Shown here piece after piece: positions 23,201 to 46,891 of a stretch of DNA of 64,000 bases; the first letter of the stretch is position 1; each line of letters begins with the position of its first letter. Source of the stretch: Liolophura sinensis (lineage: Eukaryota; Mollusca; Polyplacophora; Chitonida; Chitonidae). The DNA lies in contig NC_088304.1 in NCBI RefSeq assembly GCF_032854445.1, positions 32,046,810-32,110,809 on the forward strand, in the 5' to 3' direction. The position numbers were made by a program, and so were the translations under genes. A model generated the notes under the pieces. The model was not told the origin of the DNA, did not search any database, and saw only the letters and a program-made list of their open reading frames with translations.

Positions 23201-26200
23201 TTTTTGACAAGATTTTACAGATTTTGAAATTGTGCAACTTTTTGTGGGATTGCGTGTTACATTTTCAGCAGGGGGTTTGCGTGTTACATTTTCAGCAGGG
23301 GGTTTGCGTGTTACATTTTCAGCAGGGGGTTTGCGTGTTACATTTTCAGCAGGGGGTTTGCGTGTTACATTTTTCAGCAGGGGGTTTGCGTGTTACATTT
23401 CAGCAGGGGGTTTGCGTGTTACATTTTCAGCAGGGGGTTTGCGTGTTACATTTTCAGCAGGGGGTTTGCGTGTTACATTTTCAGCAGGGGGTTTGCGTGT
23501 TACAGGTGGTTTGCGTGTACATTTTCAGCAGGGGGTTTGCGTGTTGCATTTTCAGCAGGGGGTTTGCGTGTTACACTGTGGAAAGGTCTAATCTACCCAG
23601 TATACACATGTACGCACACACGTACACGCACACGCACGCACGCACGCACGCGGCCGCTTTAACCATAACCCATCCTCCGATGGTTCGTGTTGTTTTTCAT
23701 AAAAAGCTAAACTTGATTTCGACAGTTTACAGTTGTATTCTTATCTCTGTAGGGTCATGTGGTTGTTATCTCAGGTAGACATTGTTCTGTTGCTCTCTTA
23801 GATACTAGTTTTATTATTTATTGACTGCAGCTCTTAGAATAGTGTATTTATTTTCTCCGCTGTTCAGTGCGCACCCAAGAATAAATTGCCTTTGTCACAG
23901 TTGTAAGGGTGACAAGATTGTAGGGCCTATGGCAGGGAATCTGTAAATTCCACCGTTCTTACTGCTTGTTGGGCCATGGGCCACAGTTAGACACAAACCC
24001 TAACTCACACATTTGCCGGGTATCACACAGTCGTCGCCAGTGTTTTTTTTTTCTTTCTTTGCTGAACATTATTCATTCCGGGTGCTCAGTTTTCATGCTC
24101 ATGAATCAGACCGACATGGTATAAGCCGAGCATTCTTGATATCGTGTATAAAGTACATATATAAAGGTTTGAGAAGCGAAACAGAGTCTGCTGGGAAACA
24201 ATACTATCTTCCCATACATATACCTTCTAAACTTAACCTCTAAAACCCGAACTTACCCTGTAAATCCCCTAATTTACCATATAAATCCCTAACAAAACCC
24301 TGTAAACCCCTAACTCACATTCACACGGAGAGAGATTGTCGACTTTAGAATGAAGGGCTTCCAGAATGGATCCATAGTTCATCAGTAAAGCCACGCTTTA
24401 CTGAACAAAATGGTTCTTCGTTTCACACTAAGCTCTTTAACTTTCATGTAGAAAACGAGCTGGCAGTTCTGATGCCAAACAAGGCTGAACGAAATGATTC
24501 TTCGTTTCACACAAGTTATGAGTGAAGGAATTGAATGGTACATTTATGCAAGAACTGCATTAAGGTTGGTGTCATTTTAGGTGTGTAATGGCATGGTGTA
24601 TCAGTGGCCTTCCCACAGAAAATTTGTAACATATTGTAATGTAACCCATCCAAAGGAAAGGAATTTGAAAGTGTTAGTTTAGGAAAGTTGGGCTTGTGTT
24701 AATCGTTTGTTTACGAATGGTTAAAAGCGATTTATCTTATTTTTTCTTTTGTCCCTGAAAACAGACTTTCAAGAGAAAGATGAAGGCGATGAAGATTTTG
24801 GTTTGTCTCCATCGTTGTCTAGATTGAGTCTTGGAGGTTCATTCAGAAAGCGTTCAAGCCTCGGGAGCAGCGGCCTGTCTGACGAGGAAGAAGCCTCCTC
24901 ACCACCAGGTCAGCACACCTTAATTCGGATGGTGTATGAATTTTCCAGCGTCTGTTAAATGGTTTCAAATTATGGTGTTATCTTAGATGTCACCTACATA
25001 AACTTGAGACTCCCAGATGTCTACTGACACGTATCTGAGTGAACAATCGGATGTTCGGAGAAGCGGTTTCGCTTTTACCATCAGCTTAATTTATTTATTT
25101 ATTTATTTGATTGGCGTTTTACGCGGTACTCAAGAATATTTCACTTATACGACGGTGTCCTGTATTATGGGGGGGGGGGCAAAGCCTGGGGGAAATCCAC
25201 GACCATCCGCAGGTTGCTGAAGTCCTGGCCATGTATGCCCGGAGAGGAAGCCAGAATGAACTGTATATGAAAGTTATACTGCCAGTCGATCGTTTGGAGA
25301 CACGAGTAGGCTAATAAACATATTCTTTCATTTTCAGTCAGATTCATTAGACGTTTGCTAAGTAAACTTAGAAACTCTACATTATGGCAACAAAAACAGG
25401 ATTGGAGACCAATAAAAACCAGTGACGTCAGGTAATATTGGGCAGCGACTTGACAAATTACACATGATTGTGTGCGTTATATATGCACGGGGAGTTCGAC
25501 AAAGGAAGAGGTGTTTAAGTTCTGTCGATGTTCTCATGATTTATTTTTCTTCATCCGAGTAGGAGCAAGGTGCGTATCTCCCACACTTTGTGAACCGAAG
25601 ATTCTGACTCTTAGAGATTACCAAAAGGAACTGTATTCTGTCGTGAAAGAGTGTAAGAAAACAATGATTCTGTGTCCAGCAAAAAGCGGGAAGCGCTTTG
25701 TGGCTCTGAAAGCTATAAAGGTGAGCAACGGAGAGATGATGTCTGTTTTCTTATAATACCTTAATGGGTTTACAGTTGATCTCTCAACTAAATACTGACT
25801 ACCTTTTTTGTCAATATGCATTGCTTGTTTTGGTTTGTTTGTGTGTTTTTTTTAATTTTTTTTCGCATCAGTTTTGGGGCCATGGGCCCTAGTTTGCCGA
25901 GTAATCTAACGAGTTATTAATACAGAGGTATTTATTTATTTATTTATTTATTTTCATTGGTGTTTTACGCCGTACTCAGAAATATTTCACTTATACGACA
26001 GCGGCTAGCATTATAGTGGTTGGAAACCGGGCTCAGCCCGGGGGAAACCCACGACCATCCGCAGGCTGCTGGCAGACCTTCCCACGTACGGCCGGAGAGG
26101 AAGCCAGCATGAGCTGGACTTGAACTCACAGCGACCGCATTGGTGAGAGACTCCAGGGTCATTACGCTGCGCTAGCGCACTAACCAATTGAGTCACGGAG

Positions 26201-26319: not shown

Positions 26320-26397
<78 letters not shown>

Positions 26398-29300: not shown

Positions 29301-31719
29301 TTGTACCCGTGATGACCTCTCGTGGTGAGTTCTGTGCCTTCCCCAGCCAACTCCCACAACTTTGCCAGACCTTGGTCAGCCTTTTGAGCCCTCTTGAACT
29401 CATCCACTGTCAACGTTTTGACATCAAGTGGGTGTGAGACAACCAGAGGTTTCAGTGGCTGCTCTGCCTTCTTGGCCTGAGCTCTGGTCACAGCTGCTTG
29501 TGCTCCTCCGTTATCTCTTGAATCTTTCTCACTTTGGGAGGGTTGGTTGCCCCAGGGATATACCTATATGACCAGATCACATATGGGCTTTTGCATGCGC
29601 ACAGCCTCAACCTCTCCTGTGTAGAACGGGGTATCCACCTGGATTTTGGCAATGGGAAACTGGCGTATAGTGCCATCAATCAGCACACAAGCGTATACAT
29701 TTTCAGTCATTTGTTCAGGCTGGACCAAACTGCTGCGAACAGTTGCACTGCTACACCCAGAATCCCGTAACACCTGCACCTTGGTATCACCTACAAACCC
29801 TTCTCCCACTGGCATGCCATGATCAAGTGGTAACTCATGATTACATGCACCACTTATCACTGGGATGGATTCACCATTGGCCATTTTCAACTGACCATCT
29901 TCCATGCACTCTCTAATGGAGGCAATCCGCTGGCTGGTAGCTTGATAGGCTGCTGTAGACTTGCTGTCTGTGACCTTCTGGTCAGATGGTGCCCCTTTCT
30001 GGCTCAAGATAGCCTGTTTATCCGCTCTGCCTTGTTCACCGTCACTACCCATGTACTGGCACCAAATGCCAGCACTGCCACGCCCTCCAGGGATGGATTG
30101 AGCACCAGCAACCTTCTGTGTTTGGTGTTGACCGGACTGAATCTTAACCCTGCAGTCCCTCGCTTTGTGACCCAATCTGTGACAGATGTAACATTCAAGG
30201 GGCTTCCTGCTACCATCGGTGCTACCTTGAGCCGGGTTACCCAGAGAGCTACCTGGACTTGACTGCTTGGGCTTTGTGTCACCACCTTTGGATGAGCCCA
30301 AAGTGTCTTTCTTTTTGTTCTTGTTGAACAAAGTACAGCCATGAGCTTCAACATACTGCTTAGCAACATGAGCCATCTTTTCAATGCTGGTAAGTTCAGG
30401 CATTCGTTCTTTCAAAAACATAGCCAAATCTTCATGATTTCAAATAGAAATGAACTGATCTCTCAACATCATGTTTTTCAGGCTATCATAGTCCTCAGTG
30501 ACTTTCGCTAACTGCATCCATCTAGTAAAGAAGATTTGTAATTTGCCCACAAACTGTGATGCGGTTTGACCTGTGTCAGGTTTTGATTCCCTGAACTTTT
30601 TCCTGAACCCTTCTTCATTAAGCTCATAGCGTTTCAGCAACGTCGTTTTCAACCGATCATACTCATTGACCTCTCTAGTTGGCATATTGGAATACACCTG
30701 GAAGCCCCTGCCTGTCAAAAGGGGACTCAAACACACCGCCCAGCTCTCTCCCGGCCACTTTTGGCTCTGAGCAAAACGCTCAAATCTCTCTAGGAAATCA
30801 TCCACGTCATCCTTCCCTTCATCAAATTTGTGCAACTTGGGCAAAGGGGATTTCATAGCTACAGCTAAACTCCCCCCTCCCTGATTTCTAGCCTGCTCTA
30901 ACGGAATCTGCAACTCTAGTTCGCGCTGCCTAGCTCCGGCTTCACGTTGAGCCCTTTCTCGCTCAGTTGCAACCTCACGTTGAGCCCTTTCTCTCTCAGC
31001 ATCCCTGGAAGCTGCCTTTTCCTCCCTGTCTTTAGCCTGCTGCTCTTTCACAAAGTCTTGCAATGCCGGGCCATCGTAGCCCATATCCTTCCATAACTCT
31101 ACTAATTTTGCAAGATCCATATCTGCCAGCGAGCTCAGCTATTCTGGGGACTGACTACTCTCAATGGAAATATGCCTTCTGCCCTATACTACTACTGGGG
31201 AATTATCTCTCCTGTCGCACCAAGTCACACTGCCTTTACGTCGAAACACCAGAAATCCTCAAAAATTTTCCAAAATTAATTTATCTCACTCACAAATTTC
31301 TAGCTTTCCCAAACGAGCCCCCAATTGTCAAAAGCTCATAAATTTGTGGGTCTAGTTGGTTCTAGTTTCCAAACTAGCTGTGCTTTATATGGCAGTGTGT
31401 GAGGGCGTAAGACAAGGAAGATAACACATAAAAAGAAATATGCAATATGTATATTTATTTATTTGATTGGTGTTTTACGCCGTACTCAAGAATTTTTCAC
31501 TTATACGACAGCGGCCAGTATTGTGGTGGGTGGAAACCGGGCTCAGCCCCGGGGAAACCCACGACCATGCGCAGGTTGCTGGCAGACCTTCCCACATACG
31601 GCAGGAGAGGAAGCCAGCACGAGCTGGACTTGAACTCACAGCGACCGCATTGGTGAGAGGCTCCTGGGTCATTACGCTGCGCTAGCGCGCTAACCGACTG
31701 AGCCACGGAGGCCCCTGCA

Positions 31720-31791
<72 letters not shown>

Positions 31792-34700
31792 GAACAAACA
31801 ATCAATCTACGGATCAATGTGACAAAATTGCATATACCAGACACAATGTTCTATGTAACAGTTCACTGATCAAAGTGTCGAAATTGAAACCAGAGGGTAT
31901 GTCATAGAGCCTACTCACGACCTTGAATGTCTCGAACAGTCCACTCGTACAGTTCCTGCGTACCCATCGCACCGTGCTCTGCACACCCGCTGTATACAGC
32001 TGTCAGACGCAATCCACAGAGTCCACTGTAGTCCACCAAACGCGCGTCGCAACTCACAGCCTCCCAGGAAACCGTGTCCGGTATCACCCTCGTGATACAT
32101 AGAGCGTTGTAACACCTCTTTCGTAATCCACTCGTCCGCAGTTCGTCGCGGTTCACTGGAGACACCTTGCCCCCTAGTGACGAATAATCCAAACGCATGC
32201 AGCACCACTGCTGGTCTCTGTTGATCCTCGCGGGCCACAGTTCTTCTGACTATAATCGGCCCTTTGTTGAACATTGGTGATCACTAGCAGTAACACTAGC
32301 CCACTGTCAGAATTGACAAACCACTGTTGAATCCGCGACACACCTACTAGTGCTCTCTTCTCTTCTCTCTCTATATTACCACACCTCCCCCCCCACCCCC
32401 CACCCCCCACCTCGCTTTCTTATATACTCCTCTGGCTTCCAAGAGAATGTTCTGGGATATTCACCACTGACCTATCCGTTTTCTTCTAACTTGTCACAGC
32501 ATAGCTCACAGCATACTGGTGTCGCCTGTCATGAAATACAATGGGCGATCTCGCTTCTCAGGCTTATAACTACATGTTCTTCGTGTAACACGAGTTGAAT
32601 TGTAACGGCTTCTGCATAACTCAGTGTATGCCGCTTATCATAGCTAAAATGTTCCACAATAACAAAGTCAACAACCCTATACATGTCACAACCACTGCCT
32701 GCACAGAGCATTACAGCAATATTTGACAGAGGCCCCTATTAATACAGAGGATGAACCTTGGCCAATGACGTTGCCTGTATAATGCCTTAGACTTATAAAC
32801 GCATGTGGGTTCAACGACAACAGCGAAGTCAAAGCATCGCCACGTAAATTGTAAAATGTTTAGACCATCTGCAAAAGATCTCGGTAAGTGGATCGAAAGC
32901 CTGTGAAACATTCTACATTTATGTATAATAACAAGGAAAGCAATGTTAAACAAAAGGTTAGGGTTGATGTCTTAAAACGTACGCAGTCTGCACACATGTG
33001 GAGCACAATAACACAATGGACATGTTACATGTTTGATTCCCTGTGAGCATATCAAATACAGTAAATTACAAAAATGTTAGCTGTGTTATCCCAAAAACTA
33101 CTATATCTTGATTTATTTATTTATTTGATTGCTGTTTTACGCCGTACTCAAGAATATTTCACTTATACGACGGAGGCCAGCATTATGGTGGGTGGAAACC
33201 GGGCAAAGCCCGGCGGAAACCCACGACCATCCGCAGGTTGCTGTCAGACTTTCCCACTTACGGCCGGAGAGGAAGCCAGCATGACTATATCTTGAGGTCA
33301 GGTTTGCATGTGTATAAAGCACAAAGACATACTGGGGGATGCTCCATCGATGATGTTCTGCTTGCATAGTATTTACCGTAAATTACCAAATTCACGACTT
33401 CAGTGTTTATTGAACTGAACTTTTGCATTCATATGAAGTTTTGCATTCAGATGAGCTCTGTTATGAAATCTCAGTTATTATTTATCTCTTGTTCAGTTTG
33501 TGAAAATTACCTGAGGTGTAGCCTTAACTCGCTTGCTTGTTTTGTTTAAGGAACATCTCTCTCTTGCTTGCAACCCGGATGGGAAGGTGGCCTATCTGGT
33601 GACAAAATCATCCTTGGCGGGTAAAGTGCTGAGAAGATGCCAAGTCTTTCTCAACGATATTCCATGTGTTCAAATTGGAACTGAGTCATCTGATGGACCT
33701 TTATCCAAGGTTCTTCAAGAAAACAGTGTGTTGATCGCTAAGGCGAAACTCTTCAAAAATGCTCTGGAAGAAGATGTGGTTAAATGGACAGATTTCTCCA
33801 TGGTGATTCTAGAATTAGGTGCTGACTACTACGAACAACGAAAGGACGTGTATAAACAAATCATGAAAAAGTATCACAAGTTCAAACGGCCCTTCCAGCA
33901 AGCCCAGCAAGCCCAGCATATGCCCCAGGTATCTTGTGCTAAAATGATCTGGATAGTAAAGAACCCATCAAAATATAACCTTGAAAAGCGTCTCCCAAGC
34001 TACTTGTTTAATTCGTACAAGTATCAGAACTTTGTCTTTTTCATGATTTTGAAATGCCCATCAGAAATACTGGCATATGTATGTATGTATATTACATGTG
34101 TGTATGTATGTATGTATGTGTGTATGCTTGGGGTTTTAAGTCGTACGTCGATATGGACGTTCTTCTTTTGGCCACCGAAGCGGTCTGAAATTCTGGTAGC
34201 TGTACCCTTAATGGGAAAGAAACATAGAAAATGAAGTAATCATCCGTAGAAAGAATATTCAAAACTGTGTGCTAATTATCAGATACCATCAGCTATTTAT
34301 TCTGTTTCTATTTTATTAAATTACCTGCAACCAAATGGATTGTAAGGCTGGCCCCAATATCATATGTGCTTAGTTTTGCTGCGGCAGGCATTACAAGAGT
34401 ACATTTTTGTCATTGACGTTCGGTATTCCATAAACCCCACCTCACAGTATAAACGTTTGACTGCATTTTAATCTTTGAAAAATAGAGTGAGTGAGTGCTT
34501 CGGGTTTAACGTCGTAGTCAACAATTTTTCTGTCATATGACGACGAAGGAATCCGTAGGGTGTATGTAATGTGCCTCCTTGTCGCAGGACGGATTTCCAC
34601 CGCTCTTTTATCTAGTGCTGCTTCATTGAGACAACTTACGGAAGGCAAGTAATCCGCCCCGCCCGAGCCATTATACTGATACGGGTCAACCAGTCGTTGC

Positions 34701-37700: not shown

Positions 37701-40700
37701 CTATCTACTCTCTTAAATCAAAACCAATGTGGTCTGCGGGAATGATCGTCGGGCTACTCTCTGAAATCAAAACCCATGTGGTCTGCGTGAATGATCGTCG
37801 GGCTACTCTCTGAAATGAAAACCCATGTGGTCTGCGTGAATGATCGTCGGGCTACTCTCTGAAATGAAAACCCATGTGATCTGCGTGAATGATTGTCTAT
37901 CTACTCTCTTAAGTCAAAACCAATGTGGTCTGCGTGAATGATCGTCGGGCTACTCTCTGAAATGAAAACCCATGTGGTCTGCGTGAATGGTCGTCGGGCT
38001 ACTCTCTGAATGAAAACCCGTGTAGTCTGCGTGAATGATCATCGGCTACTCTCTGAAATGAAAATCTATGTGGTCTGCGTGAATGATCGTCGGGCTACTC
38101 TCTGAAATGAAAACCCATGTAGTCTGCGTGAATTATCGTCGGGTTACTCTCTGAAATGAAAGCCCATGTGGTCTGCGTGAATGATCATCGGGCTTCTCTC
38201 TGAAATGAAAACCCATGTGGTCTGCGTGAATGATAGTCGGGCTATTCTCTTAAATCAAAACCCTTGTGGTCTGCGTGAATGGTCGTCGGGCTACTCTCTG
38301 AAATGAAAACCCATGTGGCCTGCGTGAATGATCGTCGGGCTACTCTCTGAAATGAAAACCCATGTGGTCTGCGTGAATGATTGTCGGGCTACTCTCTTAA
38401 ATCAAAACCCATGTGGTCTGCGTGAATGATCGTCGGGCTACTCTCTGAAATGAAAACCCATGTGGTCTGCGTGAATGGTCGTCGGGCTACTCTCTGAAAT
38501 GAAAACCCATGTGGTCTGCGTGAATGATCGTCGGGCTACTCTCTTAAATTAAAACTTATCTGAATAATTCTTTAGATATCAACTTTACTGATCCAAACTC
38601 GGAGCCAAATTCAATGAAATGCTTAAATCCAGATTCGATATGTGATCACTGTAACTCACCTCTGACTAACGCCTCACATCAGAAATAGTATTTAAATCAT
38701 TAGCTCCTTTGAACACAAAAATCTCCCATGATCCTGTTCTGCACTTTGTATATTTGAAAACCCTTTCAAATCCCCCATGGGGTGATGCCACTCAACTTTG
38801 TGTTCAAAAGTTGTTTAACTAAGTTCTTTATGAAGAGGTGGAAAAGCAAAGGATTAATAACCCATGGTGAGTTCAAGCAAATACTGTGCTTCATACCGTC
38901 ACTAGTTACAAAAATATCATTTTTGTTCTATATTACAATAGGTGAAGAATGGCCTAAATAGTGGAATCCCGATTTGGATCGCTGATAAAATGTAACGAAT
39001 AAATGTAAAAGTAACAGAAAGCTAAAATATGAAGTAAGTTTCACCACACGGGCAACTGAAAACTATGTGTACAAATAATTTTATATATATTTTTTAGAGT
39101 TTTGGAAGAGTGTTGAAAGGCATTCAAATATTTGAATTTCATGGTGGGCTTACTATGAGCCATACTGACGGTATCTAGGAACACTGACATCACATCACCT
39201 TTTTTCCTGATGTTTACCAGAATAGAGCAATTTTCTGAGAACGTTATTTTGTACTTATGGGTAAAAAGAGTTATTACAACATTCGGTGTCATAATCAGAG
39301 TTGGATAAACTTCCTGTGATGTCAGAGTTCCTAGACTGATAATATTGTCCATAAAGTCCACTTTAGAATTTAAACGTTTGAACGCCTTTAACTCTCTTCA
39401 CAAAACTCGAAAAACATAAATGAAAGTATATTTACGCATAGTTTTAAGTGGTCTATTTAGTGATGCCTACTTCCGTTTTAGATATATTTTTCTTTAAGCA
39501 CCAAGACCAAGCGGTCAACAAAATTACAACCAAATTCCTGTGTATTTTTTTCCGTAAAAGAAAATAAGCACAGGAAAAGCAGTCGTAAACAATGGTGTTT
39601 TGTTTATTTATTTTATTGAAGATATGCCGTTCTCAGCTGTATAATAATACAGTTTTAAGATGAATTAAATCTAATATATTTCTTTGTCCACAGAGAGGAC
39701 GACAGTACCGGAAAAACAGGACCGTGGTTTTGATGAAAGGGTTAATGAGCTTATGTCTCGTGTAGAAGAGACAATGAAGAAAGTCTATCAGTCCACGAGT
39801 AAGCCACCTTAGCAAATATTAAAATCGTTTGTTGGCACTGTACTTATAGATCTTTTGAAGTCGTTCTCAGATATTACATGCATACATCTCTAGTAATCTG
39901 AAAGCCTCAGTGACTTAAGCTGTCGCATATGTATATTCTGAAAACACCTAGCCGGTTTGCTATAACACTTTGTTTGCTGTAGAGATGCCAGTTGATGAAG
40001 ACCACCCAGAAAACAGAAGGGCCGAGGTTATCTCCCCTCCTGCGGACAGAACTTCTGTGAAATACATGACCTGGTTGAAAACGAACAAAGCAAGTCTGAG
40101 ATATGGAGCTAAGAAAGGTCAATGCAAACGCGCGGCGTTCTTCTGGACCTGTTTAAGACTAGCCACGGTATATATTTTGTGTTTGACTTCTTTCTTCGTG
40201 TATTATTAATGGATGAGTTTTAGGCTGACAATAAGGTAGGCTTATATAGCTAGGTCTGAAAAAAGGGGCACAACCATCTGACTCTCTTCACAAAGCTCTA
40301 GGTTGTATCCTCCTCATTATAAACCTGACTGACGACATGTATACACAAGAAACCTGTACGAAGTCATGTCCACACCATGAGCCTGACCGACCTCATGCCC
40401 ACACCAAAAACCTGACTGACGTCATGTTCACACCATAAACCTGACTCACGTCATGTTCTCACCATAAACCTGACTCACGTCATGTCCACACATTAAGACT
40501 GACTGACGTCATGTCCACACCTATAAGCCTGACTGACGTCATGTCCACACCATAAACCTGACCGACGTCACGTCCACACCATAAGCCTGACTGACGCCAT
40601 GTCCACACCATAAGCCTGAGCGACGTCATGTCCACACCATAAGCCTGAGCGACGTCATGTCCACACATTAAGCCTGACTGACGTCATGTCCACACCATAA

Positions 40701-43700
40701 ATCTGACTGACGTCATGTCTACACCATAAACCTGACTGACGTCATGTCCACACCATAAGCCTGACTGACGTCATGTGCACACCATAAGCCTGACTGACGT
40801 CATGTCCACACCATAAACCTGACTGACGTCATGTCTACACCATAAGCCTGAGCGACGTCATGTCCACACCATAAGCCTGACTGACGTCATGTGCACACCA
40901 TAAGCCTGACTGACGTCATGTCCACACCATAAAACTGATCGACATCATGTCGACATGATGAAAGTGACCCGTGAAATATACAGGAGTAATGACAGTGAAT
41001 GTCTTGGAAAGGTTTTTGCTTATTTTTAGATCTAAAAGACAAATATAACAAACTAAACATGTGTCTAGGCGTTGAAACAGACATTTGCATACCAGCCTTC
41101 AACCAAAATAGACGTTGCAGGCCATTAATTGCAAGGTCAGTTTCCAAAACAACCTTTTACAAAAGCCATCAATTGAAAGAACTAAAAACAAAATATGAAA
41201 TTAACACGGATTCATACAAAGAGAAGCAGTCGACAGTTTTCATCGATGTTGAAGACGCACGGAATGTTCCAGGCGAATCAGCATCCCAGTCGGGTACCGG
41301 GCTAAGTTGTCGATAATCAAAATATGTATATCAGTTGCTCTTTTATTACAACTGTTCATATATCCATCGAGACTATTTAATTCAACACGACGAACATACA
41401 CAGTCCCGAATTAGACACAGTTATTATTCTGCTCTCGCTGTCCAAATTTAGTTACAAGAGCATTAAACCAATGTATAGATAAAGTGAAGACAAGAGTATA
41501 AACAGGGTGGAAGAATCATCCGGCCGCTATTTATACCTAATATATAAAACAAGGTACATAACTTCAGTGCCTAGGACGGGACACCCAACTTTACATAACT
41601 GGATACAAAACACGGAACCAAACGACGTTCGTTCAAAAGTTGACACATGTAGAATTCGGCCCACAAACGTGCTTTCACTTCGCTATGCGAAGCCGAAAAC
41701 CCGCAAGTTTATATGTTTTTTGTTTAGAGCTAAGCTTTTATCGCCCAGACGGATTGCATTGATGCAGGCAAGTTGAACCGACAGATTTGCGTTTATGGAA
41801 AAAAAAAAAAACAGAGAATGGAGCATAGACCGTAACTAATCGAGTTATTTGAAAGTGTTTTATTAAAAGAACATTTCACTTGACCTGGAAGCCTGCGTGG
41901 CTCAGTTGGTTGGCGCGCTGGCGCAGCGTAATGACCAAGGAGTCTCTCATCAATGCGGTCGCTGTGAGTTCAAGTCCAGCTCATGCAGGCTTCCTCTCCG
42001 GCCGTAAGTGGGGAGGTCTTCCAGCAACCTGCAGATGGTCGTGGGTTTCCGCCGGACTCTGTCCGGTTTCCACCCACCATAATGCTGACCGCCGTCGTAT
42101 AAATGAAATATTTTTGAGTACGGCGTAAAACACCAATCAAATAAATAAATAAACACTTGATCAGTGGTAGAAATTTGATGACTCCAGCGGTTTTCACCCC
42201 TGAGAAATCAAGCCAGAATTCTCGCCCGACGGTCTTCCTGTTAACCGGATTTGTCCGAATAAACAAAAAACCTACAAACTTACTGGTTTCCCGGTTTTGT
42301 GTAGCCAAGTGAAAGCATGCTTGTTTAGCCAAGGGAAAGCATGCTTGTTTACCAGTTCACACGCCAGTACAAAGCTTAACGTATCAGCTTTCAGCTTTTG
42401 TTTGGTTGAGATTGGGTCATTTTTCCGTGTTTTATGTCCAGTTATGTAAAGTTGAGTCTTCTTTTTGAGCATTAGAGTTACGTACCTTGTTATATATTAG
42501 GTATGAATGTGGATGTATATGTAGAATGGCGTTCGGATGATTCTGCCACCTATGATATAACGCAATTTCGTTCAGATTTATCAGTCTGGCTTGTTCATCA
42601 ACACTGAGTGCCGGAGGTTCGACGCTTTGAATTATATGAGGAGAAAGGTGAAGACGTTAAAGGAAAACCTAACTGGACCTTTGGATGACAATCTGATGAG
42701 CTTATTTGAGGACTTCTATGGTAAGATAGATGTCTAATTTAAATATCGTTTAACTGGAAATAAAAGTTTATTTGTGAATGTAATATGAAACTGTATGACG
42801 TTAAAGTGACCTCCTCGGTGGGTCAGGTGATTCGAGTACCGACTCGTTCAGACCCTTGAAAAAAGGGCCGCGTGTTCGAATCTAGCGCTCGGTGTTTCGG
42901 CTGCGCTTTTACGTCATGAGATTTGCCAGTTACCTGGCGAAGGGTTAGGGTTAGGGTCTCCGGGCATTCTTATTCACCCTGATTAAGATTATGGCCATAA
43001 TTATCATTAGTATTATTATTATCATGTATTTATTGTCATTACCACCATTCTTGATTAATAATTGATAAATAATTATTATTATTGTCATTGTTGTTGTAGA
43101 GAAAGAGAATTATCTAAAGTCAATTTCTAAACCGTACGAGGAAGACAACACTGCCACAGTCGTGAGGAACAAACTGGTAGAAATATATCGCGTCAATACA
43201 ACTTACAAAGTGGCTGTTCTTGTGAAGTACCCTATGGCCATTTTGTCCATGAAGTTTTGCTTGATGAAAACACTTTCCAACCTCGAGCTTGCCTGTGTTC
43301 TAGGTCATCAGCAGGGTATGTCAACTGTGCAAATTAGTTCCAAAAATGTATCGCTAACACCAAATAAATTTTGCGAATTGTTACACATTGTTATATTTAG
43401 AGTGAAATTTTGACTATCTGGGAATTTATCCAGCTGAATATGATAGGCCATGTTCGGTCACTGGTAATGTGACCGAACATGAAAGTCAGTTATTTATTAA
43501 TTTAATTGGTGCTTTACGCCATACTCAAGAATATTTTTCTTATACGACCTCGGCCAAGAATATGGTGGTGGGAGTGGGGGATCCAGAGACCGGGGGAAAT
43601 CCACAACCATCCGCAGGTTGCTGTAAAACCTTCTCACGAACGGCCGGAGGGGAAGCCAGCATGAGTTGGATTTGAACTCACAGCGAGCGCATTTGTGAGA

Positions 43701-46700
43701 GGCTATTGTGTCATTACCCCGAGGTGACATGCTAACTCCCTCGACCACGTAGGCCTCAACATGAAAGTTAGTTCAATCATGATAACAGAAAAAAACCCGC
43801 TTAATTGGCGGTCCAATTACGTTCCTTTTTATCTCCTATCTTATATGTATATCATTGACGCAAAAGGATGCAGTTATGTATACCGTTACTTTCATGCGTT
43901 CCACCGTACACTTACATAGCATTTAGTTTAACTCGTTATGTCTTTGTGGTTGATTCCCGACAGCCGGGGGCATTACAGGGAAATTTGTGCTTCTCTCTGA
44001 CTCATACCACCCCTTATGACACTGGCCAAAACGATCTGATATCAATTAGAAAACTTCTTATACACTTGCACTTTCCCAAGATGTCGTTAGTTGGCTTAGA
44101 TATAAATTAGTCTTACCTGATGTTTCACAGGCAACGCCTTTATTTTCCCTTTACAATTAAACTATGTTACAGACTACACGGTAGAGACTAATCGGCTATT
44201 TGAGACGGGATTCCATGTGCTAATTACTACCTGGCCGATCCTCGCCTTTCACTTGGGCAAAGAGATGAGGACCTGGGACTATGTGGTGAGGACGGACTGT
44301 CCGGGCAATGACGTCATCACATGGACACATCCGGGTAAGGCAGGGTAAACTTGCAAGCAATTATGCTTCTGATTTATTGCCGCGGTTTGGTGTCTAAATT
44401 GCAACTTATTTCATTTCTGAATTGTAAACTGGCGCGTGAATTGTAACCCTCGACAGGGTAACAATGCGCTTGGTGTACCTGGAGCAAGCTCGGATATTTC
44501 ATCTGAAATAACGAACACTGCAACAACATCGCACTGTACTTATGAGAAACTTGCCGCAACTGCAACTGCATGGCCGCCAGTTTTCACTGAATCTAGCCCA
44601 CCATTATGTTCCAAAAGCAACATACGTGTAACAAACAGTGAAAATAAACTCTCTTTCCTGGTTCCACATCCAAATCCACACTGACGCTCCAATAACTGAA
44701 AACATTCAAACATACCTACCAGATCAACGAGGTGATCACGAGTGATAGGCAGGACACAGGTCACTCGATGCAGACAGTTCATTTCATCGTTTCTCGCGGA
44801 CATATTTAAAAATTATTGGCCTTTCTCACTTAAATTGGCGTGCTCTGTATCATTGTTATTGCCAAATATTTGCTGTTTTGCATTAAACATGTATATGTAC
44901 ACCAGTAAAGCTGACAGTGTTGTAATGGAACTGTATGTTCACCGCGTAGTCATGTGGCTATGGCCAACAGTGCGCCGTCTGACCTAGGCTGTAGTTCGTT
45001 TACATTTATAAAAATGTCCGAGCTTGAGCTTAGAAAATGTTCGCTTTTCCCCCCACTTTTATCAGTCTCAGTTGTGTGATAAACAGAATCGTACACTCGC
45101 GGTCATTTCATATGAAAGTTAGGAAGCTAAATGAAGAAATTTTGCATATGTTGCTCACTAAATCTTGAAGCATATGTAAAATTTCTTCGTTGCATATGAA
45201 ATGAGCACTTGTCAGGTCCTCTACATATGAAGTCACTTTCTCTCAGTTTTGAACAGTTCATGGATTTTGTTTTAAATTGTTGTTTTCTTTGTGTTTCACA
45301 TCAAAAAACTGTCTGGTTTTATTATACTGTATATACATGCATTCTCTTAAAATATACACAAGACCTGAAACAATTTTATTGATAAATGCTGATTAAATAG
45401 ATCCACGTGAGGCTAAGCCTAAACAAGCCTACAAACATTACACAGGCTCCAAACGCGGAGCTTGTCTAGGGGTGGCAGTGGTGAGGAACAATGCATCCTT
45501 ATAAAACGCTTAATCATTATTCTGTAGAATCCTACCATCGAGAAAATTGTCACTGGTCACTTATAAGCCTTAAGAATTAAAATGCAATTGACATTTAAAA
45601 TGGAACACCTTTGACGTGTTAACTGTAACTCCTATGCTGCGAAACTATTTGCTGGTGAAGCGTAATATCGTATCTAAGCATTTTGGTTCTTGGTTATCCT
45701 TTTTTTGCTGTGTTTAACATGTTGAAGTTATGACACCAACGGGAGCGTTCAATTTCACAGCTGAAGGGCTGTATTGAGCAGTTAAACTGTATTAAACCTT
45801 CGATTATGTACTTAGTGGAGGGCATATAGCATCTTCACTGCCCGTTCGTGTGTCCGTCTGATATTTTGACTGATGATTTTGTCTGACGAACATCCTCACA
45901 CGTGGCGTACATGTATGAAGACCATATTGCTGGGACACAAGTGGTCTTCAACGAACGTTAGACTGCGCAAACGCCCACCGGAATTTCGTCGATACAAGCA
46001 GTGAGAGCAGGAAAATCAGCTAATCCCTTGCCCAAGGCCGGGTTTGAACCCGCGCCTCGTGTGTCCTAGATATTGAAGAGCAAACGCCTTTAATCGCTAT
46101 ACCACGACCCGTTACATGAAATTATTGACAGTACTCTCATATTTGTTGCATAGATTCAATAAGGAATATCAACGTTCAGTAAACATTCCTTAAAGTGAAA
46201 GTTTTAGCTCTGTAACGCCTGCGATTTCTTGTTTGTTTCAGGGAGACCAGTGACCGATTCAGCACAGTCAGAGAATCCGGTTGACCTGTTGACAGAGTCA
46301 TCCATTGAGAAAGTTGCTTTAGAGATCGCACAACAGCAGCAAGACTCAAGCGGGCTCTACCGGGCTCTTCTGAATGATATCCAAATTGCCTCATCCGAAC
46401 GGGAGTTATGGAGTCGCTCTACCCGCAACCTTACAAAGTTGTATGACGAAATTGTGGGCGATTTCTTCTGCAATGGCTGCGGAAATTTTGTGTGTAACAG
46501 AGCGCATGTGCGGAATTTGGATGACCTCTGGTTAGGCTTGGATCCGAATCTCATTCACAGATTTAGCGCAATAAAGCACTCGACACAGATTGTCTTCAGC
46601 AATGGCTACGCCAAACTTGGCCGATTTGTCTGCAAAGAGTGTGGCCAAAAATGGGGCATCATAGCGCACGTGCTAGGCAGAACCCATTTGGCTTTCTCTA

Positions 46701-46891
46701 AGGAAGGACTTGACTACCTGGTAGATGGTCGACTTCAGGAATACCATGGGAAATGGAAGTACGCGAATATAGAAATAAAGTTGTTCGACTATAACCGGGA
46801 CGTACTCCGTTGCTTGCCCTCCTCTTTCTGTGTAGAAGGCGAGACTATCGCTGAACTTCAAAGCCGTTTACCAGAACCTGTAGAGGATTAA
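5104..46891 (+). CDS. RIG-I-like receptor with degenerate helicase (whole split gene, 13 exons)
   Basis: RLRs are cytosolic sensors that bind viral double-stranded RNA and signal through N-terminal CARDs. The reconstructed order is CARD1 (exons 1-2), CARD2 (exon 3), Ser/acidic linker (exon 4), helicase lobe 1 (exons 5-7), helical insertion (exons 8-10), helicase lobe 2 (exons 10-12), pincer and CTD (exon 13). With one base added in exon 2 and one removed in exon 3 the coding sum is 970 codons including stop, close to human RIG-I and MDA5. Exon joins 3-4 through 12-13 are all GT-AG and phase-compatible. Colinear resemblance to RIG-I/MDA5 is clear in every exon. ATPase motifs I, II, V and VI are degenerate, while the zinc cysteines persist. 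Introns are swollen by repeats. Alternatives are a decaying pseudogene or a functional pseudo-enzyme; the open frame across ten exons favours the second. Family assignment is sure; activity is inferred. Confidence 0.85.
5427..7445. repeat. Minisatellite array 1, 30-bp unit
   Basis: About 65 units of 30 bp around the core CATTAACCCTGATATGTCAC followed by AGTGGACACA. Start of the large intron 1 array. Long open frames in several registers (SQWTHIN.. or CHSGHTLT.. repeats) follow from a unit length divisible by three and are not genes. Confidence 0.95.
7446..8920. repeat. Degenerate minisatellite domain 2, split by a SINE
   Basis: Irregular units of about 27-35 bp around GTGTCACAGTGAACATACAT, with 'ttggcagact', 'ttggtaaa' or 'ttagcacact' variants. 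They share the CACAGTG-ACA core with array 1. A family A SINE interrupts at 8362-8629 and the array resumes after it. Confidence 0.85.
8362..8629 (+). repeat. tRNA-derived SINE (family A) in the minisatellite
   Basis: Full-length. The head has a tRNA-like A box TGGCTCAGTTGGTTAGCACG and a B box near 8436 (diverged here, GAGTTAGTCAAGCTC). The body ends at 'gtacagcgtaaaacac' and the tail is (AAAT)n. The insertion postdates the array unit it interrupts. Confidence 0.88.
8921..11570. repeat. Minisatellite array 3, 54-bp unit with higher-order repeats
   Basis: About 49 units of 54 bp; one unit holds ACTGGACATACATTCGCAGA, CTCGCACCGAGCGTACCTCA and ACGTGCTGAGTCAG. Variants alternate (TTCGCA/TCCGCA, GAGTCAG/GGTACAG/GGTCAAA). 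Identical stretches recur at 10087, 10573 and 11221, that is 9 and 12 units apart, so blocks of units were duplicated together. Confidence 0.95.
11640..18720. repeat. Minisatellite array 4, 35/37-bp units
   Basis: About 195 units of two kinds: 37 bp (ACATGCAGACGAACACATGG then CGCTGGCTCCACAGTGG) and 35 bp (with CACAAACACA). Variation within units gives GGCGCTGG, GGCCCTGG, GGTGCTGG and GGGACTGG types. Large blocks are duplicated, for example the rare 'cagaccaaaacatgg' at 13071 and 15148. Units contain almost no stop codon in any frame, producing spurious frames up to about 1300 codons on both strands. Confidence 0.95.
18721..20230. repeat. Minisatellite domain 5, diverged 35-bp units
   Basis: Units like TGAACACATGGGACTGACTT then CACACTGGATATGCA. 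Regular until about 19050, then increasingly diverged and of uneven length up to about 20230. Derived from the GGGACTGG type at the end of array 4. Confidence 0.9.
20346..20452 (-). repeat. Family A SINE fragment
   Basis: Reverse-oriented piece with 'ttttcacttatgcatgtacgacggcggccagcatta'-like content, the 'cagagcctcgggg' and 'cgtccgcagtttgctggc' blocks. Both ends are missing. The rest of 20231-20800 shows nothing recognisable. Confidence 0.7.
20801..20936 (+). CDS. RLR exon 2: second half of CARD1, frame disrupted near its end
   Basis: The acceptor TATTGTAG|AC completes the phase-1 codon left by exon 1. The translation (NEMFLEDTEKERWTGEMVEI and on) aligns with the - strand paralogue exon at 895-761 (NEVFLKTLEESEDKGKWNTF). 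The frame hits TAA at 20929-20931, just before a strong donor G|GTGAGA at 20937. One missing base near 20927-20931 would remove the stop and put the exon in phase 0, which exon 3 needs. Alternatively, an extra A at 20928 has broken a perfect GGTAAG donor; that reading then requires a second indel in exon 3. Confidence 0.65.
20937..21667. other. Intron 2 of the RLR gene, first part
   Basis: AT-rich sequence with no recognised repeat or exon. Family A SINE copies follow at 21668. Confidence 0.4.
21668..21908 (+). repeat. Family A SINE, diverged
   Basis: Head 'gggacttggtggtcagcgtactagtgcaac', B box 'gtgaattcaagtccagc', body to 'cggcgtagtactcaag' and an (AAAT)n tail. It shares the 'agtgcaacacaatg' variant with the copy at 22806, so the two form a subfamily. 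Confidence 0.85.
22093..22421 (+). CDS. RLR exon 3: end of CARD1 and CARD2, with a 1-base frameshift
   Basis: Acceptor ATTTTAG|GTTATG, donor GAAG|GTCAGT (phase 1). The first half (FLEYLTPVIKTKFNPIKLL) resembles the start of RIG-I CARD2; the second half (SAAELLLNRVQRLKKDV and on) has the usual CARD helix 4-5 pattern. The two halves lie in different frames. The switch is within or near the run GAAAAAC at 22274-22280, where five A would need to be four. The exon end phase agrees with exon 4 only in the second frame. A homopolymer indel can be sequencing error or true damage. Confidence 0.75.
22806..23014 (+). repeat. Family A SINE, 3' truncated
   Basis: Head 'gactcggtggcttagtggtcagc', B-box region 'gtgagtttaaatccagc', body to 'ataatgctggccgccg', then breaks off. 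Same subfamily as 21668-21908. Lies in RLR intron 3. Confidence 0.82.
23055..23148. repeat. 24-bp tandem repeat, about 4 units
   Basis: Four units around GAGCAAGATATCAGGTAAT. Intron 3. Confidence 0.85.
23250..23580. repeat. 27-bp minisatellite, about 12 units
   Basis: Nearly identical units TTTTCAGCAGGGGGTTTGCG plus TGTTACA. Each has a 'ttttcag' acceptor-like string and a G-run, with a few 1-2 base indels. A CA/CG-rich microsatellite follows at about 23604-23652. Confidence 0.95.
23660..24764. other. Rest of intron 3 of the RLR gene
   Basis: At 24230-24315 there are degenerate 'cctgtaaacccctaac' units, vaguely telomere-like but irregular. A duplicated phrase 'tgaac.aaatg.ttcttcgtttcacac' is at 24401 and 24487. 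No exon found before 24765. Confidence 0.4.
24765..24908 (+). CDS. RLR exon 4: CARD-helicase linker
   Basis: Acceptor AAAACAG|AC, donor CCAG|GTCAGC, phase 1 on both sides. It encodes 48 residues that are acidic at the start (EKDEGDEDFG) and serine rich later (SLSRLSLGG, RKRSSLGSSGLSDEEE). No globular fold is expected. It occupies the position of the flexible linker between the CARDs and the helicase in RLRs, and several serines sit in basic/acidic contexts that could be phosphorylated (inference). Confidence 0.75.
25087..25264 (-). repeat. Family A SINE, truncated
   Basis: Reverse orientation: (TTTA)n tail, 'ttggcgttttacgcggtactcaagaatatttcac', a run of G, 'atccgcaggttgctg', ending at 'ggagaggaagccag'. 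The tRNA-like head is missing. Intron 4. Confidence 0.85.
25563..25720 (+). CDS. RLR exon 5: helicase Q motif and degenerate Walker A
   Basis: Acceptor CGAGTAG|GA (phase 1), donor AAAG|GTGAGC (phase 0). LTLRDYQKEL matches the RLR Q motif (LRxYQxEL). The Walker A position (25673-25696) reads CPAKSGKR where active RLRs have APTGxGKT: the lysine stays, the following Thr that helps hold Mg-ATP is Arg. The following FVALKAIK matches the helix after motif I. The next intron contains the nested SINE/Gypsy insertion. Confidence 0.85.
25929..26202 (-). repeat. Family A SINE, left part, split by the Gypsy element
   Basis: Nearly full reverse-oriented SINE from the (TTTA)n tail to 'gagtcacggaggc'. Its last bases continue at 32729-32736 after the LTR element. 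The SINE's own target duplication TATTAATACAGAGG is at 25915-25928 and 32737-32750, which proves it was there before the Gypsy insertion. Confidence 0.93.
26203..26921 (-). repeat. LTR (3' LTR of the - strand element), internally deleted
   Basis: About 719 bp, TGTCAAA...TTTGACA. Contains an (AT)n microsatellite at 26323-26393. Lacks a roughly 420-bp segment present in the other LTR (31896-32310); the junction is after 'gaaattgaaaccag'. Confidence 0.93.
26929..26945 (-). promoter_or_regulatory. Polypurine tract of the LTR element
   Basis: On the - strand a run of A and about ten G lies a few bases before the 3' LTR, the expected place for priming plus-strand synthesis. Confidence 0.7.
27025..27495 (-). 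pseudogene. Gypsy RNase H, broken
   Basis: ELNYSVIEKECLALVFAVKK and FILQTDHQPQAYI are the conserved RNase H blocks of Gypsy pol (the DH and the E helix), open from 27303 to 27025. The upstream part linking to RT (27495-27304) contains stops and a C-rich slippage run (ccaccccaccccacc), so frame is lost between RT and RNase H. Confidence 0.85.
27496..28341 (-). pseudogene. Gypsy reverse transcriptase with altered YxDD box
   Basis: 281 codons. FCIDFHRLNMVT, SKLDLSKGYWQIPV, TTPQGCFQFKRMPFGLVNSA and FLGLAGYYRKFIPNFS are standard Gypsy RT blocks. The catalytic box reads SLVDDV, with Leu where the family has Tyr or Phe. It begins after the integrase stop at 28398. RT copies RNA to DNA during retrotransposition; this copy is probably inactive. 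Confidence 0.9.
28398..29491 (-). pseudogene. Gypsy integrase with catalytic core deleted
   Basis: Segments in order on the - strand: a linker (TRAQAKK ... DEFKRAQKADQGLAKLWELA) to 29240; an HHCC zinc finger (HESVVGGHLG ... HWPG ... FCQSCDICQ) at about 29230-29060; then directly LKEMCAEQPREWDRYLSAVL, the part that normally follows the third catalytic residue. The roughly 130 residues holding D, D and E are missing. The C-terminal GPY/F-like module (QWPGPNQVSEVV ... LLKQYIERDD) and an acidic tail remain. Stops and a frame change separate the pieces. Confidence 0.87.
29488..31120 (-). pseudogene. Gypsy gag-protease, with stop and frameshift
   Basis: MDLAKLVELWKDMGYDG opens at 31120, with an Arg/Glu-rich coiled coil and then a capsid-like block (FERFAQSQKWPGESWAVCLS). 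An in-frame TGA lies near 30440; the same frame resumes with LAMFLKERMPELTSIEKMAH. CYICHRLGHKARDC is a CCHC zinc knuckle. VLRDSGCSSATV is the aspartic protease site (DSG). Near 29564 the frame shifts by one before GATNPPKVRK. Packaging and polyprotein cleavage are the family roles. Confidence 0.88.
31306..31323 (-). promoter_or_regulatory. Primer-binding site, tRNA-Pro-like
   Basis: Two bases inside the 5' LTR the - strand reads TGGGGGCTCGTTTGGGAA, close to the tRNA-Pro primer site known from murine gammaretroviruses (differences in three positions by memory). Confidence 0.65.
31326..32728 (-). repeat. LTR (5' LTR of the - strand element), with inserted SINE
   Basis: About 1403 bp. Matches the left LTR at both ends and around the (AT)n run at 31722-31788. 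It differs by a family A SINE at 31449-31715 and by a 420-bp segment (31896-32310) missing from the left LTR. Without the SINE it would be about 1.13 kb. Confidence 0.92.
31449..31715 (-). repeat. Family A SINE inside the 5' LTR
   Basis: Full-length, reverse oriented, (TTTA)n tail to 'gagccacggaggcccc'. Flanked by TGCAATAT (31441-31448 and after 31716). B box on the - strand 'gtgagttcaagtccagctc', A box 'tggctcagtcggttagcgcg'. The youngest layer of the nest. Confidence 0.92.
32729..32736 (-). repeat. Remaining end of the split family A SINE
   Basis: GAGGCCCC continues the SINE interrupted at 26202; its first five bases are the Gypsy target duplication. The SINE's own target duplication follows at once (32737-32750). 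Confidence 0.88.
33112..33283 (-). repeat. Family A SINE, head truncated, with target duplication
   Basis: Reverse orientation from the (TTTA)n tail to 'gaagccagcatg'. Perfect 12-bp target duplication ACTATATCTTGA at 33100-33111 and 33284-33295, so it inserted in this 5'-truncated form. Confidence 0.92.
33551..33928 (+). CDS. RLR exon 6: helicase lobe 1, motif II lost
   Basis: Acceptor GTTTAAG|GAA and donor CCCCAG|GTATCT, both phase 0; 126 codons, fully open. The order of elements follows RIG-I: KVAYLVTKSS (motif Ia strand), SVLIAKAKLFKNAL at the place of DIIILTPQILVNNL, then FSMVILELGADYYEQ at the place of the DECH strand. The DECH box (codons 33812-33823) is ELGA, so neither the Mg-binding Asp nor the catalytic Glu is at its usual place. 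The exon ends HMPQ, like the PLPQ before motif III. Confidence 0.85.
34072..34125. repeat. (ATGT)n microsatellite
   Basis: Imperfect run of ATGT/GTGT in RLR intron 6. Confidence 0.8.
34487..34834 (-). repeat. tRNA-derived SINE (family B), full length
   Basis: On the - strand: tRNA-like head 'gcccggataggacagttggtagagc' with B box near 'ccaggatcaatcctgg', body with 'gtgcaacgactggttgaccc', tail of GTGA/CACT repeats. Target duplication TTGAAAAATAGA at 34475-34486 and 34835-34846. Intron 6. Confidence 0.92.
35496..35652 (+). CDS. RLR exon 7: motif III region and end of lobe 1
   Basis: Acceptor TTATTCAG|ATA (phase 0), donor TTGG|GTAAGT (phase 1). ILVLSTS sits where RLRs have GLTAS. Downstream, CANFDIHAVAVVRHHIDSL closely follows the conserved RLR stretch CASLDxxxIxTVxxNxxxL. 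The next exon is 4 kb away, past the 49-bp minisatellite. Confidence 0.85.
36105..38560. repeat. 49-bp minisatellite, about 50 units (intron 7)
   Basis: Unit contains GTCGGGCTACTCTCTGAAAT, GAAAACCCATGTGGTCTGCG and TGAATGATC. Variants include GATCTAC, AATCTATGTGG and TTAAAT. Some variant pairs alternate in blocks, so local block duplication is likely. Lies between exons 7 and 8; each unit reads mostly open on the - strand without meaning. Confidence 0.95.
38561..39693. other. Intron 7, 3' part
   Basis: AT-rich; no repeat or exon recognised. A - strand frame at 39361-39041 (106 codons) has no similarity I know. Confidence 0.35.
39694..39798 (+). CDS. RLR exon 8: start of helical insertion domain
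   Basis: Acceptor TGTCCACAG|AG, donor CACGA|GTAAGC, phase 1 on both sides, 35 codons. FDERVNELMSRVEETMKK is an amphipathic helix at the place of the first Hel2i helix in RLRs. Too short to identify alone; position and phase make the case. Confidence 0.75.
39983..40167 (+). CDS. RLR exon 9: helical insertion domain
   Basis: Acceptor TTGCTGTAG|AG (phase 1), donor GCCACG|GTATAT (phase 0). VKYMTWLKTNKASL matches the KYExWIxxxxKxx signature of the RLR helical insertion, followed by a Cys/Arg helix ending CLRLAT where RLRs have the CxALFLYTxHL helix. The intron after it carries the TGACGTCA array and the foldback element. Confidence 0.8.
40330..40960. repeat. 29-bp minisatellite with perfect CRE-like palindromes (intron 9)
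   Basis: About 21 units around CTGACTGACGTCATGTCCAC plus ACCATAAGC. I count 11 exact TGACGTCA palindromes, the consensus for CREB/ATF bZIP proteins; other units carry one-base variants (CGACGTCA, TCACGTCA). Confidence 0.95.
41030..41316 (+). other. Unassigned open frame after a good acceptor in intron 9
   Basis: TTATTTTTAG precedes 41030 and an open frame of about 95 codons runs to TAA/TGA at 41316 (ends ESASQSGTGLSCR). No similarity recognised. Its start would need a phase-1 donor, so exon 9 (phase 0) cannot join it; exon 8 could. It might be an alternative terminal exon or chance. Confidence 0.2.
41506..42550. mobile_element. Foldback (inverted-repeat) element, SINE in the loop
   Basis: Left arm from 41506 (GGTGGAAGAATCATCCGG) and right arm ending 42550 (CGGATGATTCTGCCACC) are inverted copies. 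Further matching blocks: 'cctaatatataaaacaaggtac' with 'gtaccttgttatatattagg', 'actttacataactgga' with 'tccagttatgtaaagt', and 'gtgctttcact' with 'agtgaaagcatg'. Arms are about 300 bp and imperfect. A family A SINE lies between them. No coding capacity: probably a MITE or other non-autonomous DNA transposon. Confidence 0.75.
41884..42153 (+). repeat. Family A SINE, full length
   Basis: A box TGGCTCAGTTGGTTGGCGCG, B box GTGAGTTCAAGTCCAGCTC, body to 'gtacggcgtaaaacaccaat', (AAAT)n tail. Target duplication CACTTGA at 41877-41883 and 42154-42160. Confidence 0.93.
42576..42720 (+). CDS. RLR exon 10: helical insertion to lobe 2
   Basis: Acceptor CGTTCAG|ATT (phase 0), donor TATG|GTAAGA (phase 1). 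IYQSGLFINTECRRFDALNY aligns with the RLR helix LxKYNDALxIxxxxRxxDAL, and MSLFEDFYG with the stretch before lobe 2. The exon starts only 25 bases after the right arm of an inverted repeat (41506-42550). Confidence 0.82.
42806..42965 (+). repeat. tRNA-like SINE fragment (family C)
   Basis: 'cggtgggtcaggtgattcgag' and 'gccgcgtgttcgaatctagc' sit at A-box and B-box spacing; 'gagatttgccagttacctggcgaaggg' follows. A related stretch lies at 63785-63905. Two TTAGGG units at 42944 are part of this sequence, not a telomere. Confidence 0.5.
43100..43315 (+). CDS. RLR exon 11: helicase lobe 2, motif IV region
   Basis: Acceptor TTGTTGTAG|AG, donor CAGG|GTATGT, phase 1 on both sides. KLVEIYRVNTTYKVAVLVKY matches the RLR region LxxxLxxxFxxxxxxxxIIFVKTR (motif IV strand), and LSNLELACVLGHQQ falls where RLRs have LxPGxLTGRGK. 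The GRG of the latter is lost. Confidence 0.82.
43492..43757 (-). repeat. Family A SINE, full length
   Basis: Reverse orientation, from the tail to 'gaccacgtaggcc'. Imperfect 16-bp target duplication AACATGAAAGTCAGTT / AACATGAAAGTTAGTT at 43476-43491 and 43758-43773, one mismatch. Intron 11. Confidence 0.92.
44173..44334 (+). CDS. RLR exon 12: helicase lobe 2, motifs V and VI lost
   Basis: Acceptor TGTTACAG|AC, donor CCGG|GTAAGG, phase 1 on both sides. LFETGFHVLITTWPILAFHL occupies the place of FxxGxxNxLIATSVADEGID (motif V): the strand LITT is kept, the ADEGID is gone. The exon ends DVITWTHPG, where RLRs have the arginine-finger motif VI (QxxGRxR); one Gly-Arg remains across the junction into exon 13 but the other arginine is absent. 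Confidence 0.82.
44335..45910. other. Intron 12, 5' part
   Basis: No exon or known repeat recognised. 'gcatatgaaatgagca' and neighbouring phrases around 45110-45230 repeat the string 'catatga' loosely. Confidence 0.35.
45911..46115 (-). repeat. tRNA-like SINE (family D)
   Basis: On the - strand: 'gtcgtggtatagcgattaaaggcg' (A-box region) and GCGGGTTCAAACCCGGC (a near-perfect B box), followed by a body shared with 2781-3035. Ends about 125 bases before exon 13. Confidence 0.65.
46242..46891 (+). CDS. RLR exon 13: pincer and zinc-binding CTD, stop
   Basis: Acceptor TGTTTCAG|GG completes a phase-1 codon; 216 codons to TAA at 46889. The first half is helical (pincer). The CTD follows: CNGC (codons 46469 and 46478) and CKEC (46631 and 46640) supply the four zinc cysteines, with CGQKWGI matching the RLR CxxxWGI signature. 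FSKEGLDYLVDG and YHGKWKYANIEI fit the later RNA-facing loop and the YxKWKDxxFxI strand. In RIG-I this domain caps 5' ends of RNA duplexes. A SINE copy follows 48 bases downstream. Confidence 0.92.

Follow-up and report, generated by a model that had tools for sequence, protein, structure and literature searches.

In the accessible parts of the respective papers, ATP turnover is reported as RIG-I's way of avoiding self RNA (PMC4733034) and as a restraint on spontaneous MDA5 filaments (PMC12589613). The RIG-I mutant K270I, which binds ATP poorly, still co-purifies with stimulatory RNA without signalling, and RIG-I E373Q holds ATP and signals on self RNA (PMC4733034). LGP2, as far as the available text reports, halts the motor of MDA5 while helping filaments to assemble (PMC12589613), and in DRH-1 the lysine and threonine of motif I and the aspartate of motif II contact ADP-Mg (PMC11095941, in part). 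Lophotrochozoan RIG-I-like receptors (RLRs) have expanded by tandem duplication, according to the accessible text of a survey (PMC8998645).

Here, we describe a gene of the chiton Liolophura sinensis whose predicted product resembles an RLR with a pseudo-enzyme helicase; it lies in a window of 64,000 nucleotides, i.e., the whole stretch of DNA that was analysed (contig NC_088304.1, positions 32,046,810 to 32,110,809). To our knowledge, pseudo-enzyme cases among RIG-I-type helicases are known only from Dicers. A natural, apparently constrained RLR without its ATPase parts would offer a direct test of the helicase scaffold and C-terminal domain alone and, if our reading is true, would add a pseudo-enzyme case to the RLRs.

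Gene model and surroundings of the locus

An earlier note on this DNA had described ten consecutive exons (4-13) with canonical, phase-matched splice sites and no stop, which proved exact. Exons 4-13 occupy 24765-46891 on the forward strand, their nine junctions are all GT-AG with matched phase, and the 765-codon product keeps an open frame without internal stop. This product is 100% identical to the NCBI protein of LOC135476093 (P0002) over the searched residues 48-765, and at full length in the alignment. A chance chain of exons was ruled out by this identity together with colinear homology to a second L. sinensis protein, P0003. In the exon scan, strict splice-site thresholds yielded zero candidate exons, lowered thresholds combined with phase yielded candidates, and homology settled the choice. 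The gene extends beyond the earlier finding, as a paralogue-guided search recovered three upstream exons encoding two CARDs. The exons of the gene, followed by two exons of an RLR-like neighbour, are as follows.

5104..5248 (+), exon 1: holds the start codon and the beginning of CARD1 (53% identity to P0003 in tblastn, E 7e-11; donor and phase)
20801..20936 (+), exon 2: remainder of CARD1, with a frame change near 20872 (tblastn in two frames; frameshift-aware alignment)
22093..22421 (+), exon 3: CARD2, its frame altered near 22104 and again near 22273 (tblastn with P0003; frameshift-aware alignment)
24765..24908 (+), exon 4: acidic serine-rich linker without P0003 counterpart
25563..25720 (+), exon 5: retained Q motif (LTLRDYQ), followed by Walker A (PAKSGKR) (RLR alignment)
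33551..33928 (+), exon 6: degraded Ia (TKSSLAGK), degraded Ib (AKAK) and DECH position (ELGA) (RLR alignment)
35496..35652 (+), exon 7: motif III (STS for TAS) and end of Hel1 (RLR alignment)
39694..39798 (+), exon 8: Hel1-Hel2i junction and first helical stretch (Pfam, RLR alignment)
39983..40167 (+), exon 9: Hel2i helical insertion (Pfam, RLR alignment)
42576..42720 (+), exon 10: Hel2i (Pfam, RLR alignment)
43100..43315 (+), exon 11: start of Hel2 and motif IV position (VLVK) (RLR alignment)
44173..44334 (+), exon 12: of motif V just the strand (VLITTWPILAFHLGKE), then the beginning of the motif VI position (WTHP) (RLR alignment)
46242..46891 (+), exon 13: remainder of the motif VI position (GRP), then the pincer, a C-terminal domain of RNA-binding type bearing two CxxC pairs, and the stop
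3213..3378 (-), neighbour exon 1: holds the start codon and the beginning of a CARD1 (46% identity to P0003 in tblastn; frame intact)
761..895 (-), neighbour exon 2: remainder of CARD1, frame intact (tblastn with P0003)

Exon 1 alone matched Pfam CARD_2 at E 0.23 only, and the two pieces of exon 3 at E 0.015 and 0.00027, both under the Pfam cut-off. Exon 4 is phase-symmetric (in 2, out 1), so its skipping is possible. An alternative acceptor of exon 12 at 44131 would add 14 residues, and the NCBI protein agrees with 44173. The neighbouring RLR-like gene stands head to head with the window gene, with ~1.7 kb between the start codons, and runs off the start of the window; its exons 1 and 2 joined gave Pfam CARD_2 at E 8e-4, under the Pfam cut-off.

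Intron 1 consists largely of minisatellite arrays (5463-20177), among them one of a 37-bp unit in ~200 copies (11663-18946), and these arrays account for long false open frames on both strands. Intron 5 carries a Gypsy-like-looking retroelement (27025-31138, minus strand), broken by stops and frame changes, with a Pfam RVT_1 match (E 1.8e-25) in 27496-28374; two other scanned pieces of it were without a Pfam hit at 1e-3, and its gag-like and integrase-like frames are by-eye assignments. Downstream of the gene lie a 28-bp tandem array of ~207 copies (49391-55203) and, at 55629-57736 (+), a reverse-transcriptase frame (RVT_1, E 1.8e-9) beside an open transposase frame (DDE_3, E 4e-11; HTH_Tnp_Tc3_2, E 1e-10). 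The published L. sinensis assembly, presumably the source of the window, was built, according to the available part of its report, from PacBio HiFi reads at 14x with Omni-C scaffolding (PMC11068029), and the species name of the assembled animal was corrected from L. japonica (PMC12441733).

RLR identity and domain organization

A phmmer search of the window protein against the PDB returned MDA5 as the best match (E 4.8e-22), and the 40 distinct sequences matched up to E 0.1 were RLR-named except for two Dicer-related helicases and three "RNA helicase" entries. A profile built from three paralogues matched MDA5 at E 9.8e-31 and the RIG-I C-terminal domain chain 4a2v at E 1.3e-5. In P0002, Pfam RIG-I_C (PF18119, E 1e-12) and RIG-I_C-RD (PF11648, E 2e-9) were both over cut-off, i.e., the RIG-I-type helical insertion and the C-terminal RNA-binding domain that mark RLR membership are present, and exon 13 matched RIG-I_C-RD at E 2.9e-10. 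Up to E 10, P0002 matched five Pfam families, the DEAD-helicase model not among them; in P0003 this model was barely over cut-off (28.8 bits vs 26).

The scaffold that the earlier note had called still clear (Q motif, helical insertion, lobe 2 strands) is indeed recognizable, with Hel1, Hel2i and Hel2 kept by sequence. The window protein keeps the Q motif, the helical insertion and the two C-terminal CxxC pairs, including all four cysteines of the C-terminal domain. Near the second CxxC and near the KW pair, a histidine, a phenylalanine and lysines that in RIG-I contact the RNA 5' end seem kept by eye. AlphaFold models from 3- and 4-row alignments had mean pLDDT of 35.6 and 35.0 and were not used. 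Judged by its sequence matches, the window protein is an RLR.

Degradation of the ATPase motifs

The motifs were compared with MDA5, LGP2 and RIG-I in an alignment in which the RIG-I letters stop at motif IV, so that MDA5 and LGP2 alone serve as references for motifs V and VI. We found Walker A, DECH, Ia, Ib, III, V and VI to be degraded in the window protein. Walker A changes from PTGSGKT to PAKSGKR; the earlier note had read CPAKSGKR with Thr replaced by Arg, and the letters are right, but the P, G and K are retained (P..SGK) and therefore most of the motif is lost, not all of it. The strand IIIDEC(HH) is replaced by VILELGADYY, and the ELGA proposed for the DECH position holds as an ungapped reading, the alignment setting a two-residue insertion after ELG. 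Motif Ia has lost its glutamine, Ib reads KAK for TAQ, and III reads STS for TAS. As had also been claimed, motif V keeps only its first strand (LITTWPILAFHLGKE in the RLR alignment), with one T and one G retained and E, E and D lost, and motif VI lacks the arginine pattern, QARGRAR having become WTHPGRP with the Q-R-R positions gone.

Among the SF2 ATPase motifs typical of RLRs (I, II, V and VI), the DECH and the motif VI arginines are thus gone, and the signature of an active SF2 helicase or translocase is absent, with GKR for GKT/S, EL for the Walker B DE and no motif VI arginine pattern. Nor are the ATPase motifs kept as they are in LGP2. At the positions corresponding to the DRH-1 ADP-Mg contacts, T is changed to R and D to E. 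The changes include residues for Mg binding, for ATP hydrolysis and for the coupling between the lobes. Since the motif I threonine and the motif II aspartate are lost, no hydrolysis and weak or no ATP binding would be expected, and the motif losses predict an absence of dsRNA-stimulated ATPase activity.

Helicase motifs are normally the best-kept part of the protein. Among columns invariant in the active RLRs of the alignment, the window protein retained 10 of 42 in motifs I-VI vs 46 of 111 elsewhere in the helicase core (Fisher P 0.06), and with the C-terminal part included the non-motif figure was 59 of 159 (P 0.14). For P0003, the corresponding figures were 9 of 42 in motifs vs 40 of 111 in the rest of the core (P 0.12). 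Motif columns are not significantly enriched among the losses, and general divergence therefore also fits. By these counts, the motifs are kept no better than the rest of the core, and a specific attack on the motifs is not shown by the test.

Paralogues sharing the motif losses

P0003 (LOC135477010), an L. sinensis paralogue of 928 aa, is identical to the window protein at 496 of 722 residues (69%). Its CARDs are in frame, with Pfam CARD_2 at E 2.2e-13 and two matched stretches when the limit is relaxed to E 10. It carries the same altered letters as the window protein at Walker A, at DECH, at III and at every lost motif V column except one, and because a full-length paralogue at 69% identity shares them, the losses are not the private decay of one gene. 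Between the two proteins, the motif windows, placed by canonical motif positions, were identical at 12/12 residues for I, 9/12 for Ia, 9/11 for Ib, 12/14 for II, 8/9 for III, 5/11 for IV, 18/18 for V and 8/12 for VI. The eight windows together reached 81/99 identical vs 496/722 overall (hypergeometric P 0.0013), although IV and VI were not conserved above average; letters at IV and VI differ between the paralogues, and both lack the motif VI arginine pattern. Of five blocks compared, the pincer and C-terminal block was the best conserved (161/213 with P0003).

A third protein, P0004 (LOC135481683; 489 aa, on a 29.7-kb contig), is 42% identical. Its record lacks Hel1, so Walker A and DECH are not readable there; motif V reads LITTWPLLVYHL, and the motif VI position is likewise without the arginine pattern.

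Most simply, to judge from the shared letters, the motif losses predate the duplication that separated the window gene from P0003. Simulated neutral drift of the window's coding sequence to 69% identity introduced a mean of 13 stops and a minimum of 4 in 200 simulations, against none observed in exons 5-13; the simulations covered substitutions only, excluded the exon 4 linker and placed the entire divergence on one path, so that about half as many stops would be expected for the window lineage alone. Sequence comparison suggests constraint on both genes over much of the period after the split; for the present-day window copy it is less certain, given the state of the CARD exons.

The earlier note had held that orthologues with intact motifs would mark the losses as individual decay; none of the relatives found shows intact motifs, these being paralogues of one species. 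The word-based searches recovered no orthologue outside Liolophura, the 3 of 6956, 2 of 7992 and 2 of 2228 candidates being Liolophura proteins only, including the window's own, and no canonical RLR of L. sinensis. These searches rely on shared 5-residue words, and one of them scored only the top word-sharing candidates and missed P0004, a row of its own query; orthologues in other molluscs may therefore have escaped them.

CARD exons and competing explanations

Exons 1-3 align with P0003 at 121 of 202 identical residues only when three frame changes are admitted (near 20872, 22104 and 22273), all within the 610 nt of these exons, and translation from the exon 1 ATG terminates after 91 residues. 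The reading frames of the two tandem CARDs are thus broken in the window copy, whereas those of P0003 are intact. This damage fits a recent pseudogene, belonging to an otherwise working pseudo-helicase RLR family, in which the CARD exons decayed first and the remainder is as yet untouched. We consider such a history rather unlikely, since exons 4-13 (2300 nt) contain zero stops, exons 5-13 align with P0003 at 499 of 712 identical residues with zero frame changes, and three random changes would all fall in exons 1-3 with a probability of ~0.009 (length arithmetic, post hoc). In addition, the NCBI protein P0002 (beginning MKNKGRIS) starts at the ATG at 22274, within CARD2, just past the last frame change. 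Either the window copy has shed its CARDs in favour of an internal start and yields an LGP2-like protein poor in CARDs, or decay has begun in these exons, or the frame changes reflect an allele or error. The neighbouring minus-strand CARD1 reads cleanly, which argues slightly against generally poor base quality.

Alternatively, the CARD-bearing form could be an ATP-independent sensor that signals from RNA binding alone, without ATP proofreading, an explanation that covers P0003 and would extend to the window gene if its frame changes were assembly errors or alleles. The in-frame CARDs and the similarly altered ATP-site motifs of P0003 speak for it, as does the constitutive signalling of some ATPase-deficient RIG-I forms (E373Q, in the accessible part of PMC4733034). 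However, RIG-I signalling needs ATP binding according to the same text (K270I is silent), the T and D are changed here, and one would hardly expect three errors so close together in a 14x HiFi assembly (PMC11068029, available part); we regard this sensor as improbable. We see only a slight chance that the gene encodes a fast-diverging RLR whose ATPase remains active despite unusual motif letters: the Walker A G and K are kept and motif loss is not significantly above that of the rest of the core, but one and the same protein has changes at the Mg-binding T and D, at the catalytic E and, within motif VI, at the Q and R positions. We know of no SF2 ATPase that works without these residues.

A proposed ATPase-dead RLR and its relation to known systems

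The explanation that we prefer, at about an even chance, is an ATPase-dead, RNA-binding RLR acting as a regulator or decoy, its mechanism being inferred. The pseudo-helicase RLR proposed in the earlier note stands by sequence, and most of its losses are common to P0003. As to the roles proposed there (decoy, regulator or ATP-independent sensor), the frameshifted CARD exons of the window copy, which that note had not foreseen, speak less for an ATP-independent signalling sensor than for a regulator or decoy poor in CARDs, or for incipient decay; a sensor is possible for P0003.

RNA would be bound via the C-terminal domain and a static helicase clamp, and the lack of ATP hydrolysis would entail no translocation and no proofreading. 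Motifs Ia and Ib of Hel1, presumably RNA contacts, are changed, and so the helicase clamp on RNA may itself be gone. The window copy would have no signalling of its own and would hold RNA as a regulator or decoy of other RLRs, a model that would parallel LGP2 or an RNA-binding, non-signalling RIG-I mutant; the CARD-bearing P0003 may signal, or act by mixed assembly with active RLRs. Since LGP2 stops the MDA5 motor and promotes filaments, a motor-dead relative could be a permanent brake, a nucleator or a decoy. That the gene belongs to a small Liolophura RLR subfamily with a pseudo-enzyme helicase seems, from the sequences compared, about equally probable as its contrary. More tentatively, and somewhat against the balance of probability, this would be a lineage-specific chiton subfamily without ATP use, with one CARD-bearing and one CARD-shed member, that senses or regulates by RNA binding and mixed assembly. 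With the losses shared by a sister gene, an enduring functional change seems a better description of the locus than random decay.

New here are a CARD-bearing paralogue, P0003, with most of the same losses, and P0004, which shares the motif V state and the missing motif VI arginines. In the available main text of the lophotrochozoan survey (227 RLRs, 58 species; PMC8998645), the terms Walker, degenerate and chiton are absent. Searches on mollusc RLRs, pseudoenzymes and degenerate helicases, which covered titles and abstract openings and few subscription papers, returned no RLR with this motif loss, and combining chiton with RIG-I, or RIG-I with pseudohelicase, gave no match among mostly non-subscription papers.

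The window protein shares with MDA5 and RIG-I, its best PDB relatives, the CARDs (in frame in P0003), the Hel1-Hel2i-Hel2 core and the C-terminal domain with two CxxC pairs, but differs in its degraded motifs (I, Ia, Ib, II, III, V and VI) and in the broken CARD frames of the window copy. The window copy resembles LGP2 (DHX58) in having the helicase scaffold and C-terminal domain without a usable CARD pair, and in its candidate regulator role; LGP2, however, keeps its ATPase motifs, and the window protein retains half of CARD2 and a serine-rich linker. Dicer is an RNase III enzyme without CARD or RIG-I C-terminal domain, i.e., not an RLR. Drosophila Dicer-1 shares with the chiton proteins a degenerate RIG-I-type helicase, one that works without ATP according to the accessible parts of two papers (PMC10328071, PMC11095941). 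The RIG-I mutant K270I, as described in the available text, behaves as proposed here, with reduced ATP binding, retained RNA binding and lost signalling, but it is a single laboratory mutation of a lysine that the chiton protein retains, whereas the chiton changes lie elsewhere and are natural.
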